Positions 41,316-54,307 of a DNA stretch of 64,000 bases are shown here, in pieces. A program made the position numbers and the translations under genes. Under the pieces are notes generated by a model that was given only the letters and a program-made list of their open reading frames with translations, was not told where the DNA came from and did no database searches. Origin of the DNA: Marinomonas sp. MED121 (GTDB lineage Bacteria; Pseudomonadota; Gammaproteobacteria; Pseudomonadales; Marinomonadaceae); the NCBI RefSeq assembly GCF_000153025.1, contig NZ_CH672429.1, forward strand, positions 482,544-546,543, read 5' to 3'. Position 1 is the first letter of the stretch; each line of letters starts with the position of its first letter.

Positions 41316-42326
41316 CTAAGATTGGTTTTTAAAAGCAGGAATAATATGATTACCGTATTGTGCAATAATATTTTCCTCATCCCCATTATCAAGATAGATA
41401 TTAAATTGGGTTGTCCCAGCTTCTTCTAGATTACGGATTTTAGCAATATGATCATCCACTTCACCGAGCACACAGAAGCTTTTAACAATATCTTCTGAGA
41501 TAAAGTCTAAGTAAGGGTTATCACTTTGACCGTGTTTTGAATAATCATAGCCTTTACGGTTTTCAATGTAATCCGTGAGACTTTTTGGTACCAATCCAGA
41601 GTCAGCGCCGTATTTCTCAACAATATCTGCCACGTGATTACCCACCATAGCAGGGAACCATTTAGTATGTTCAACACAATCTTCCATCTTACCAAAGTAA
41701 GCCGGTGCAGCGGCTTGCACCTTGAAATTAGACATGTCTTTACCAGCGGCTTCACCCGCATTAATTGCCTGATCTTTAAACCATTTAACCAAACTAGGTT
41801 CAGCGATTTGTAAAATAACCCCATCACCCACTTCGCCAGCTGTTGCCAAAGCTTTTGGCCCATATGCGCCAATCCAAACCGGAAGCTCATAACCGTTTGC
41901 CCAAGGTAATTTAACAGGCTCTTCACACTCACCGTACGACACCTCTTCACCGCGCACCATGGCTTTTACCTTATTGGTAAATTCTGCCACTCTTGCTAAA
42001 GGCGCCGGTTTTTTACCCATCACCCGCATGGAAGAGTCACCTCGACCTAAACCAATATCAAAACGTCCTTCACTTTGTAAAGCCAAACTCGCATAAAGGC
42101 TAGATGCCAATGACCAATCACGAATATTAGGGTTAGTCACGCAAGGACCAAAACGCATGGTTTTGGTATGTTCCATACACATAGCCATAGCGACAAAAGA
42201 TTCACGCCATAAAATATGAGAATCATAAAACCAGCAATAATCAAAGCCAGCTTCTTCAGCTTGTCTAACCAAATTTCTAGCTCGATTTGGGCTAACAAAA
42301 CCTTTAAAAGTAATACCAAATTCCAT
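41316..42326 (-). CDS. Luciferase-like (LLM) F420-dependent oxidoreductase
   Basis: A 336-residue (beta/alpha)8 protein of the bacterial luciferase superfamily, closest by eye to the TIGR03842/CPS_4043-type F420 oxidoreductases, themselves related to methylene-tetrahydromethanopterin reductase. Motifs: 'FGITFKGFVSPNRARNLVRQAEEAGFDYCWFYDSHI', 'FGPCVTNPNIRDW', 'GRFDIGLGRGDSSM' and 'LPVWIGAYGPKALATAGEVGDGVIL'. It is the last gene of the F420 operon, with SD GAGGAA. F420 use is strongly supported by context. The substrate is unknown; a pyrimidine ring or its product is my inference, because of the RutR boxes and the adjacent dihydropyrimidinase operon. It lacks the sequence of the Rut-pathway enzyme RutA. 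Confidence 0.88.
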   Translation of the reverse strand: MEFGITFKGFVSPNRARNLVRQAEEAGFDYCWFYDSHILWRESFVAMAMCMEHTKTMRFGPCVTNPNIRDWSLASSLYASLALQSEGRFDIGLGRGDSSMRVMGKKPAPLARVAEFTNKVKAMVRGEEVSYGECEEPVKLPWANGYELPVWIGAYGPKALATAGEVGDGVILQIAEPSLVKWFKDQAINAGEAAGKDMSNFKVQAAAPAYFGKMEDCVEHTKWFPAMVGNHVADIVEKYGADSGLVPKSLTDYIENRKGYDYSKHGQSDNPYLDFISEDIVKSFCVLGEVDDHIAKIRNLEEAGTTQFNIYLDNGDEENIIAQYGNHIIPAFKNQS

Positions 42327-42387
42327 TCTTAATTCCTCTTTGTCTGTCTTTTTTTAATTGATTTTTTACTTTAATGTCGAACAAAAA

Positions 42388-43056
42388 CTAAGCCTGTGGT
42401 GGTAACACGCCAATACCAGCATGCGAGAAAGGCACATCTTTAGAAATATTTAAACGGATCAGAATAGGAGTAATGGCTTCAATGCAACGAGCACTATCAG
42501 CAAGGCCCGCGTTATAGGTTCGAACACCCAGTTGATCTATTAAGGCCATCACAGTTTTCTTTGCTGCTAGCTGGTTTCCACACACTAAAACATCACAATT
42601 AATCGCATGATCAAGATCGTTCAATGTGACCGCAGACACATTATGTAACGCGCCGACAACCGGGATGCTCTCACCAAGTAGCGCTTGGGCGGCCTCAGTG
42701 GCAGACCCCTCATCAGGCATTTCAACCGCTTTAGGGTTACCAGGGGCAAGTGGCACAACAATATCCACTAGAATCTTGCCCTCTAAATGAGGCTTTAGAG
42801 CTAATAAAGTCACTTCATGGGCGCTAAAAGGCACAGCAAATATCACAATTTCTGGTACAGTTTTGGTTGCTTCAATATTGTCCATACCTTTAATACTGGC
42901 ACTTCCTGATGGCAACAATTGACTCATATCTTTTGCATCTTGTTCCGCTTTTTCACCATCACGAGACCCAATGACCACATCTATTCCCGCTCTCGCAAAA
43001 CGTAGCGCTAACCCTTTACCTTGAGGCCCAGTGCCTCCAATAATTGCAATACTCAT
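42388..43056 (-). CDS. npdG: NADPH:F420 oxidoreductase (NpdG/Fno family)
   Basis: A 222-residue reductase that passes hydride between NADPH and F420. The dinucleotide-binding start '[33 protein letters not shown]' is typical of the Fno/NpdG family. '[17 protein letters not shown]' and '[17 protein letters not shown]' are further family segments. ATG 43056 directly begins the Rossmann strand and has AGGG upstream; a longer frame to 43083 adds nine unmatched residues. In the operon it would keep F420H2 supplied to the downstream oxidoreductase. Confidence 0.9.
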
Positions 43057-43106
43057 CCTTACCCTCACATTGGTTATCTTCAATATTGGTTCATTTAATA
43101 TGCTGA

Positions 43107-43892
43107 CTATTTAAATAGGTTTTCATTTGCAGCCCTGACAAGATCAGAGGCCTGACTTGATTCTGTTTGCCATTCAAGTCCTCGGAAAATGATCACAGGA
43201 CACTTACCACTCTTACTCATAAGCAAACCAGACGCCCCAGCAAGTTCATCCGCAAAAGCAGGTGCTGTCACTTTAAGCTCATGGCCATAGGCATCTTGAT
43301 CGCCCAACATATGAGTAATCGCGGGGACATTAGCAAGTCCAATGGCGACATTGGTCTGCCCTAAACGCCAAGGCCGACCAAAGGTGTCACTGATTACAAC
43401 GCCTAAGCGACAAGAAAAAGCCGCTTCTAACTGTTGGCACAAATCACGTGCACTTTTATCAGGGTCGTTAGGCAAGGTGATTAGCTGATCAACCTCTTCT
43501 GCATTAGATTCATCAACCGCAGCATTCGCACAAATAAAACCTAATTTATGCTCTGCTATTAAAACTCCTTCATTTTGATCTGCTCGTTTCATCGACCTCA
43601 CGATACGGTTCGATTGACTTAATATGACTTCAACTTTACGGGGGTCTTTATTCACTTCTTGAGCAAGCATGATGGCATCTTGACTGGCTGTAACCTCGGC
43701 AAGATTCACCACTGCACCCTCACATTTGGAGATCATTTTATGAGCAACAACTAAGATATCGCCCTCTTGTAAGGGTGTAGGTAGCGCCTTAACGGCCTCT
43801 ATAATGGCATTCGCAGCATCATCACCTGGCTTAAAGTCAGGTAAGCCAGGCAAACGAAACACACTTAAAGCATCATCCATTGAAACAGACAT
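43107..43892 (-). CDS. cofE: F420-0:gamma-L-glutamate ligase
   Basis: A 261-residue GTP-dependent ligase that adds the glutamate tail to F420-0. '[22 protein letters not shown]', '[22 protein letters not shown]' and '[27 protein letters not shown]' are family motifs. It is the single-domain form: the nitroreductase-like reductase domain fused in mycobacterial FbiB is absent. Its start overlaps the end of cofC by 20 nt and has a strong SD (AAGGAGAGAG). Confidence 0.93.
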
Positions 43893-52786: not shown

Positions 52787-52805
52787 TTCAATTTTAATCA
52801 ATTTA

Positions 52806-52844
52806 GGCACCTAGTCGTCATTTTCATTAGGTGCCCTATTTTTT
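52806..52844 (+). terminator. Terminator/attenuator between transporter and dihydropyrimidinase
   Basis: GGCACCTA pairs with TAGGTGCC, followed by CTATTTTTTAATT. It stands inside the presumed operon, so the dihydropyrimidinase may have lower expression or its own start. Confidence 0.65.
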
Positions 52845-52867
52845 AATTGCTCTTAGGGAGAAATGCC

Positions 52868-54307
52868 ATGTCGTTATTAATACAAGGCGGAACCATAGTC
52901 ACTCATGAAATAAGCTATCAAGCAGACATTTATTGCAAGGACGGCAAAATTGCAGCAATAGGTCAGCAATTAGAAATCGATAAAGACACACAGATCATAG
53001 ATGCCAGTGGTAAATTAATTATGCCAGGCGGCATAGACCCTCATACCCATATGCAATTACCTTTTATGGGCACCGTTGCTAAAGATGATTTTGCAGCGGG
53101 AACAGCAGCGGCCCTAGCAGGGGGTACCACCAGCATTATTGATTTTGTTATTCCAAGTCCACAACAATCCTTGCTTGAGGCCTACCAACAATGGCGAGAT
53201 TGGGCACAAGCCTCCCACGCAAATTACAGCTTTCATGTCGCCATTACTTGGTGGGATGAAAGTGTTAAAGAAGAAATGGCGGAACTAACTCAAAACCATG
53301 GCGTTAATAGCTTTAAGCACTTTATGGCCTATAAAAATGCCATTATGGCCACCGATGATATCTTGGTAGCAAGCTTTAGCCGCTGTTTAGAATTAGGCGC
53401 TATGCCAACCGTTCATGCCGAAAATGGCGAACTGGTTTATCACTTACAACAGCAACTTTTAGAGCAAGGGATTACAGGACCTGAAGCACATCCTTTGTCT
53501 CGTCCACCTTCGGTTGAAGGCGAAGCCGCCAATCGCTCTATTAGCATAGCCAACACACTAGGAGCCCCACTCTATTTAGTGCATGTGTCAACTAAAGAGG
53601 CCGTGGATGCGATTCAATACGCACAAAATTCAGGTCACACGGTTTATGGTGAATGCCTAGCAGGTCATCTCGTCATTGATGATAGCGTTTACCAAGATAG
53701 CAACTGGAGCCGCGCCGCCGCCCATGTTATGAGCCCTCCTTTTAGACCTAAGTCACACCAAGACGCACTTTGGAAAGGCATTCAGTCTGGCACCTTACAT
53801 ACGACAGCCACAGATCATTGCGCTTTTTGTGCGGAGCAAAAAGCCATGGGTAAAGATAACTTCACTCAAATTCCAAACGGCACAGCAGGAGTTGAAGAGC
53901 GCTTAGCCGTACTTTGGGAAACCGGTGTAAACACGGGCAAATTAACACCCAATGAATTTGTTGCCATTACCTCAACCAATACCGCCAAAATATTTAATAT
54001 TTACCCGCAAAAAGGGGCAATCGCGACGGGCTCTGATGCTGACTTGGTAATTTGGGATCCAAAAGCGAGTAAGACCTTAAGCGTAGACACTCAAATGTCT
54101 AACATTGATTTTAATATCTTTGAAGGTATGACAGTCAATGGCAGTGCCACCTCAACGATATGTAACGGCAAACTGGCTTGGCATGAAGGCGAGCTATTCG
54201 CTAAACCTGGAGACGGTAAACACTTTGAGCGTCCAACCTTCGCTGGCTACTATGACTCCATTATTAAGAAAAACCAGCTAAACGAAGCAAAACCCGTAGC
54301 GCGCTAA
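52868..54307 (+). CDS. Dihydropyrimidinase / D-hydantoinase
   Basis: A 479-residue cyclic amidohydrolase that opens 5,6-dihydropyrimidines (or hydantoins) to N-carbamoyl amino acids. The binuclear metal site is complete and numbered as in known D-hydantoinases: His59 and His61 in 'DPHTHMQ', carboxylated Lys150 in 'SFKHFMAYK', His183 in 'VHAENGE', His239 in 'LVHVSTKE' and Asp316 in 'TATDHCAF'. ATG 52868 has AGGGAGA upstream and fits the family start. In this setting dihydrouracil or dihydrothymine is likelier than hydantoin. The enzyme that would make dihydropyrimidine (PydA/PreAT) is not in the window. Confidence 0.93.

Follow-up and report, generated by a model that had tools for sequence, protein, structure and literature searches.

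Results

A pyrimidine operon lies beside a complete F420 operon

We analysed a window of 64,000 nucleotides from the 5.15-Mb genome of Marinomonas sp. MED121, in which genes for pyrimidine breakdown stand next to those for the cofactor F420. At the centre of this report is an LLM oxidoreductase of family TIGR03842 (41316–42326, minus strand; 530 bits, cut-off 295), which we propose to be an F420H2:pyrimidine (uracil/thymine) reductase catalysing step 1 of the pathway. Its gene is the last of a minus-strand operon, cofG-cofH-cofD-cofC-cofE-npdG-LLM (48073 down to 41316), whose members overlap or are separated by at most 61 bp. The operon begins with cofG (46940–48073; TIGR03550, 466 bits, cut-off 213) and cofH (45536–46939; TIGR03551, 497 bits, cut-off 374), encoding the FO synthase subunits, and continues with the 2-phospho-L-lactate transferase gene cofD (44535–45533; TIGR01819, 275 bits, cut-off 257), the guanylyltransferase gene cofC (43873–44538; TIGR03552, 142 bits, cut-off 105) and the F420-0:glutamate ligase gene cofE (43107–43892; TIGR01916, 245 bits, cut-off 181). 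The de novo F420 set is thus complete, all five proteins scoring above curated cut-offs. It is followed by npdG/fno (42388–43083; TIGR01915, 206 bits, cut-off 150) for the NADPH-dependent F420 reductase, which recharges F420. The listed cofH frame has a TTG start, the CofH match runs from residue 94 onward, and the true start may be internal to this frame.

The plus strand carries an M20-family carbamoylase gene (49922–51160; TIGR01879, 424 bits, cut-off 204), an NCS1-family transporter gene (51191–52786; TIGR00800, 321 bits, below the cut-off of 353) and the gene of dihydropyrimidinase, the enzyme of step 2 (52847–54307; TIGR02033, 584 bits, cut-off 393). The nearest solved structures of the latter are 5ykd/5e5c (D-hydantoinase/dihydropyrimidinase). 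The carbamoylase is predicted to act as beta-ureidopropionase in step 3; its solved relatives include the N-carbamoyl-beta-alanine amidohydrolase 8c46, and the family models leave its substrate undecided. The transporter is a predicted nucleobase importer. Between the two operons lies the minus-strand gene of a TetR regulator and predicted uracil sensor (48777–49472), whose best families are RutR models. This gene content and arrangement agree with an initial annotation of the stretch, every gene it named being found where it had been placed. Records from three proteobacterial classes (gamma, alpha and beta) repeat the linkage of cof and pyrimidine genes; the neighbourhood is therefore not due to chance, an explanation that we reject. 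A lack of conserved linkage in relatives, which the initial annotation had named as a refutation, was thus not what we observed.

The LLM oxidoreductase as candidate for step 1

In the reductive pyrimidine pathway, the first enzyme reduces uracil to dihydrouracil, and the usual enzyme for this is PreTA. PreA/PydA was not found in the window's genome (best score 42 bits, cut-off 335). RutA was not found there either in a PF00296 search, which returned two proteins at E ≤ 1e-10, namely the TIGR03842 LLM and an MsnO8-family protein; nor did a RutA model figure in the list of 19 NCBIfam families with matches at E ≤ 0.001. F420H2_quin_red likewise had no match in this genome. With steps 2 and 3 present and neither PreA nor RutA detected, the LLM is the obvious candidate for step 1. 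The initial annotation had not named its exact role; our data point to this step.

The structures nearest to the LLM structure model are F420 enzymes. Its fold class is that of F420 enzymes, and this, together with a predicted F420 route in all 49 LLM-positive genomes searched (see below), points indirectly to use of F420. The protein is distinct from Mer, the F420-dependent methylene-tetrahydromethanopterin reductase: against the Mer model TIGR03555 it scores 123 bits (cut-off 349), the residue at position 6 (mutated in the E6Q variant 8qq8) is Thr or Cys in the 19 aligned sequences, and the invariant blocks WFPAMVGNHVAD (residues 223–234 of the full protein) and DYSKHGQSDNP (residues 261–271) are absent from the aligned Mer sequences. 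Phage records held no relative of the LLM at E ≤ 1e-20.

Co-occurrence in the order and in a wider set of genomes

Among 245 genomes of the order, the window's own included, the LLM was detected in 13, CofD in 67, PreA in 17 and dihydropyrimidinase in 26; for the latter two, up to six candidates were scored per genome, and single misses are possible. All 13 LLM genomes possess CofD, none possesses PreA, and 12 have a dihydropyrimidinase. Viewed from the other side, the 26 dihydropyrimidinase genomes comprise 12 with the LLM only, 10 with PreA only, none with both and four with neither (G042, G104, G115, G205). The enzymes of these four are 34–36% identical to the window's, and the three that entered the tree described below all fall outside its main clade. 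These counts are raw and ignore kinship; among the dihydropyrimidinase genomes, the LLM occurs in six genera and PreA in five, and both reductase states are found inside one family (f34). Within the window's genus (11 genomes), LLM, CofD and dihydropyrimidinase are together in seven and jointly absent from four. Apart from these patterns, 54 of the 67 CofD-positive genomes of the order lack a TIGR03842 LLM, so that a further role of F420, still unexplained, exists across much of the order. A phylum-wide survey was not informative, since it returned the LLM in two of 199 genomes only, the window's and one of the same genus.

A scan of our collection yielded 80 LLM loci, of which 51 have at least three cof genes adjoining and 63 an npdG match. 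Dihydropyrimidinase or carbamoylase (at least 45% identity) stands beside the LLM in 45 of the 80, preA or preT in none. Fifty of these loci were chosen for whole-genome searches, favouring isolates, and 49 genomes (completeness not stated) were searched. This joint survey of TIGR03842 LLM, cof and dihydropyrimidinase genes, which the initial annotation had proposed, detected dihydropyrimidinase in 48 of the 49 LLM-positive genomes, CofH in 44 and PreA above its cut-off in 12. The annotation's suggestion that F420 is made to serve the pyrimidine pathway is supported by the restriction of the LLM to CofD-positive genomes in the order (13/13) and by the presence of dihydropyrimidinase in 12/13 and 48/49 LLM genomes.

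In five loci with no cof genes nearby, the LLM gene follows that of dihydropyrimidinase directly (L022, L049, L054) or follows that of NCS1 (L053, L063). CofH of these genomes sits in open frames of 828–865 amino acids, and in four of the five CofH and dihydropyrimidinase are on separate contigs; for L063, no CofH lies within the available 11.3 kb. The LLM thus tracks pyrimidine genes even where cof genes are not close by. Other instances include Paracoccus denitrificans, which has the same cof-LLM operon beside dihydropyrimidinase and carbamoylase (L043) and no PreA detectable in its genome (G448), and Vibrio tetraodonis (G428), whose one PF00296 match is exactly the TIGR03842 LLM.

Strict mutual exclusion of LLM and PreA, as seen in the order survey, fails in the wider set and was rejected. 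The 12 genomes with both comprise eight Rhodobacterales-type records, Trinickia, Aquamicrobium, one Devosia and one Colwellia metagenome-assembled genome (MAG). All eight of the PreA regions examined contain preT; six (L105, L106, L107, L110, L111, L113) bring their own carbamoylase and dihydropyrimidinase, and two near a contig end (L108, L109) have neither. Ten of the 12 genomes encode at least two dihydropyrimidinases, and in the Colwellia MAG and Trinickia the second one, together with a carbamoylase, adjoins the LLM. Two parallel sets differing in their step-1 module are what module exchange predicts; a difference in substrate is another option.

Dihydropyrimidinase phylogeny

We built a tree of 56 dihydropyrimidinases, leaving out open frames shorter than 430 amino acids (e.g. 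those cut at contig ends) and L116, which represents the same genome region as L043. Three entries (L096, L115, L117) were labelled LLM by presence in the same genome, their dihydropyrimidinase being ∼98 kb away, ∼13 kb away or outside the LLM locus. The 33 LLM-linked and 14 PreTA-linked enzymes form one clade (support 100/99), in which the window's enzyme groups with the PreTA-linked ones. Over the whole tree, the LLM label changes seven times and the PreTA label five times, all changes being forced by supported branches. Outside this clade are eight orphan copies and a Streptomyces row, some on long branches and of unsure placement. As dihydropyrimidinase is of one kind in both cluster types and the labels are interleaved, the reductase module has been swapped repeatedly.

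A RutR-like regulator and operator-like boxes

The regulator reaches neither curated RutR cut-off (TIGR03613, 186 bits against 368; NF011584, 168 bits against 230), and we therefore call it RutR-like rather than RutR. Among solved structures, E. coli RutR comes closest to it (E 1.6e-44). Five residues, W77, Y97, W167, Q171 and Q179, are uracil contacts of RutR according to PMC10891134, and all five are identical in the regulator.

A 16-bp palindrome with pattern TTKACCANNTGGTMAA has three matches in the window (shuffle mean 0.06). One, TTTACCATTTGGTATA (48171–48186; one mismatch), is located 98 bp upstream of cofG, and another, TTGACCATTTGGTAAA (49776–49791; no mismatch), 131 bp upstream of the carbamoylase gene, within the intergenic region that separates this gene from the divergently oriented regulator gene. 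The third (50094–50109, one mismatch) lies within the carbamoylase coding sequence. We counted boxes with at most one mismatch within 350 bp upstream of genes, using a list of gammaproteobacterial loci compiled by hand from record titles. A box precedes cofG in 28 of 30 loci, eight Marinomonas loci having sites in common by descent, and cofH in three of 32, namely those where cofG is not adjacent. It was also found before the carbamoylase (13/29) and regulator (13/34) genes, where one site is often counted twice since the two are divergent, and before ncs1 (2/26) and dihydropyrimidinase (2/22). None of 141 regions upstream of LLM, npdG, cofE or cofD had a box. The boxes common to the two operons would speak against independent expression of cof and dihydropyrimidinase genes, a second refutation listed by the initial annotation. 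Random windows, drawn from the same loci with the sites included, contained a site in 78 of 2460 cases. In a motif-free count of exact inverted repeats, 14 of 21 loci (chosen at about one per genus, Marinomonas twice) had TTTACC-N4-GGTAAA ahead of cofG, and before cofE no repeat was common to two loci among the eight top inverted repeats. The E. coli rutR-rutA gap matches our pattern only at three mismatches (TGGACTAAACGGTCAA), which makes the box a relative of the E. coli box and not identical to it. In scans for promoters and terminators, the number of matches did not exceed that in shuffled sequences.

In Colwellia psychrerythraea 34H under cerulenin, PMC4744452 reports an 11-fold rise of CPS_RS18085 (allantoate amidohydrolase) and a 4-fold rise of CPS_RS18095 (NADPH-dependent F420 reductase). 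As npdG, LLM and carbamoylase are consecutive in a related MAG (L029), these transcript rises would fit joint expression.

Predicted F420-0 salvage, plasmids and an actinobacterial relative

The five of 49 LLM-positive genomes without CofH are all five Devosia genomes searched. In Devosia loci, the LLM stands beside Fgd, CofE and two proteins of putative F420-0 transporter families, an assignment made above cut-offs in L081 and by similarity in other loci. With CofH in 44 genomes and predicted F420-0 salvage operons in five, a predicted F420 route exists in all 49. The gene set of LLM, Fgd, CofE and putative F420-0 ABC transporter spans 5267–10999 of L081 and is seen in the Devosia-type loci L057, L058, L060, L067, L075, L076, L078 and L080. 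This predicted salvage suggests that Devosia-type bacteria may live on F420-0 from their neighbours.

On Leisingera aquaemixtae plasmid NZ_CP081034.1 (L118, 1545–17860), the entire proposed pathway is found in one stretch, with NCS1, dihydropyrimidinase, carbamoylase, omega-aminotransferase AptA, transhydrogenase pntAB, cofGHDCE, npdG, LLM and regulator. An apparent lack of dihydropyrimidinase in Leisingera LLM operons was a short-flank artefact and was rejected, the plasmid gene being ∼11 kb from the LLM. A record titled Nocardioides marinus (L040) holds a Leisingera-type cluster whose regulator is 92% identical to that of a Leisingera plasmid, and may be mislabelled or contaminated. On a Paracoccus alcaliphilus plasmid (L119, 15196–17794), the cof-LLM operon is followed not by pyrimidine genes but by an ABC transporter, whose substrate-binding protein had no NCBIfam match at E ≤ 1e-20.

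In Streptomyces sp. BHT-5-2 (L120, 4067–11017), a 42%-identical TIGR03842-like LLM that keeps the GNHVAD and GYDY blocks comes immediately after a dihydropyrimidinase that scores 554 bits (cut-off 393). Within 7 kb there are also an aminotransferase and a nitrilase-family amidase, neither of which reaches a curated cut-off; the latter is the carbamoylase candidate there and unrelated to the M20 type. As the Streptomyces dihydropyrimidinase falls outside the main clade, this LLM may have another use.

Discussion

The TIGR03842 LLM is most likely an F420H2-dependent uracil/thymine reductase that supplies the missing step 1, replacing PreTA, an Fe-S enzyme. We computed directly the gene content and linkage, the co-occurrence, the swapping of modules in the tree, the operator-like sites and the fold class; from these we infer the substrate of the LLM, which way the hydride is transferred and how the operons are regulated. 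We consider it highly probable that the two operons form one unit, likely induced by uracil, in which the LLM uses F420H2 to reduce uracil or thymine where other bacteria employ PreTA. In this scheme, the base is predicted to enter the cell through the NCS1 protein, and NpdG would reduce F420 with a hydride taken from NADPH. The LLM, with its luciferase fold, would then transfer the hydride from F420H2 to the C5-C6 double bond of uracil or thymine, giving the dihydro forms, whereupon dihydropyrimidinase would open the ring. Beta-alanine (or beta-aminoisobutyrate) would then be set free by the carbamoylase, along with CO2 and ammonia. Both operons would stay repressed by the RutR-like protein as long as no pyrimidine is bound to it, and F420 is predicted to be made and recharged by the LLM's own operon. 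The broader generalisation also appears probable to us, namely that TIGR03842 proteins represent a hitherto unrecognised class of pyrimidine reductase, F420H2 hydride transferases free of iron, with F420 made to order under a uracil-responsive repressor, and with a module that was repeatedly swapped with PreTA, can be plasmid-borne and relies on salvage in Devosia.

Several observations weigh against this interpretation. PreA is above its cut-off in 12 of the 49 LLM-positive genomes (37 lack it), so that LLM and PreA do not exclude each other and may act on different substrates; Shimia (G456) and Devosia psychrophila (G461) have both reductases with one dihydropyrimidinase only. PreA alone is no marker of the pathway, since seven of the 17 PreA-positive genomes of the order lack dihydropyrimidinase, and single PreA or dihydropyrimidinase misses may affect the order counts. 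One LLM genome of the order (G094, LLM 41% identical) has no dihydropyrimidinase, the genome search of Amphritea (G441) gave no match to this enzyme, and none lies within 14 kb of the cof-LLM operon on the P. alcaliphilus plasmid. At 45% identity, 35 of the 80 LLM loci have neither dihydropyrimidinase nor carbamoylase nearby, and the end of a contig or flank explains some of them, not all. Paracoccus and two searched Devosia genomes encode 10–15 LLMs each, and F420 may therefore serve other enzymes there. Transporter and regulator both score under curated cut-offs, the pattern TTKACCANNTGGTMAA was chosen after the sites had been seen, and the box core, present before cofG in 22 of 52 loci overall, was seen there only in gammaproteobacterial loci and not in alpha- or betaproteobacterial ones. 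Besides, we neither found nor know of a member on which biochemical or genetic experiments have been made.

Some of these points would be expected if the LLM used F420 within the same catabolic unit on another compound, such as malonate semialdehyde (a later intermediate), a modified pyrimidine or hydantoin, uracil being reduced by an unrecognised enzyme. The retention of PreA in 12 genomes, two of them with a single dihydropyrimidinase, would then reflect different substrates, and the carbamoylase and hydrolase families also hold hydantoin and allantoate enzymes. We regard this as unlikely, given that PreA above cut-off is absent from 37/49 LLM-positive genomes and from 13/13 in the order survey, that the order's dihydropyrimidinases without either reductase are all distant from the window's, that the enzymes of both cluster types group in a single clade from which the eight orphan copies placed are separate, and that the uracil pocket is kept in the regulator.

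The two other explanations would make the cof genes incidental. F420 could have a general role, its operon being merely parked beside the pyrimidine genes, and the 54 CofD-positive genomes of the order that lack the LLM do speak for other uses there. This is very improbable in view of the joint presence or absence of CofD, LLM and dihydropyrimidinase in the window's genus (seven with, four without), the RutR-like boxes before cofG (28/30, against 0/141 for LLM, npdG, cofE and cofD) and the single PF00296 match of V. tetraodonis. A RutA-like flavin-dependent oxygenase that opens uracil oxidatively, with cof genes as accidental neighbours, has still less in its favour, and we rejected it because of the linkage to the cofactor and the fold: in the 49 genomes the LLM is accompanied by CofH (44) or by a predicted salvage operon (five), its nearest folds and sequences are F420 enzymes, and a ring-opening oxygenase would have no need of dihydropyrimidinase.

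If the LLM is indeed the uracil/thymine reductase, its reaction would account for the production of F420 by many proteobacteria; PMC8498797 poses the corresponding open question. A ferredoxin-dependent variant of step 1, PydAc, has been published (PMC7332683), and F420H2 would thus join NAD(P)H and ferredoxin as a third type of reductant for step 1. Our search of the literature, consulted in part and with subscription papers and preprints outside its scope, returned no F420-dependent uracil reductase.

Taken together, the locus most likely encodes a previously undescribed version of the reductive pyrimidine (Pyd) pathway. It shares with the PreTA/PydA version the types of dihydropyrimidinase and carbamoylase, the type of regulator nearby and a single dihydropyrimidinase clade, and it differs at step 1, where an F420-type LLM and a whole F420 pathway take the place of an Fe-S/FAD/FMN dehydrogenase. 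With the E. coli Rut pathway it has in common a luciferase-fold step-1 enzyme and a RutR-type regulator; RutA, however, oxygenates the ring, whereas we propose a reduction, and the downstream genes are different. Mer is further removed, given the score far below cut-off, the deviating residue 6 and the unshared blocks. The nearest published idea that we found comes from the uric acid clusters of Chloroflexota, for which PMC12507026 proposes a putative luciferase-family F420-dependent yanthine reductase in place of a YgfK/UacX-type reductase. In both cases, a luciferase-family, predicted F420 protein would replace the reductase of a nitrogen ring, there of a purine in Chloroflexota, here of a pyrimidine in Proteobacteria.

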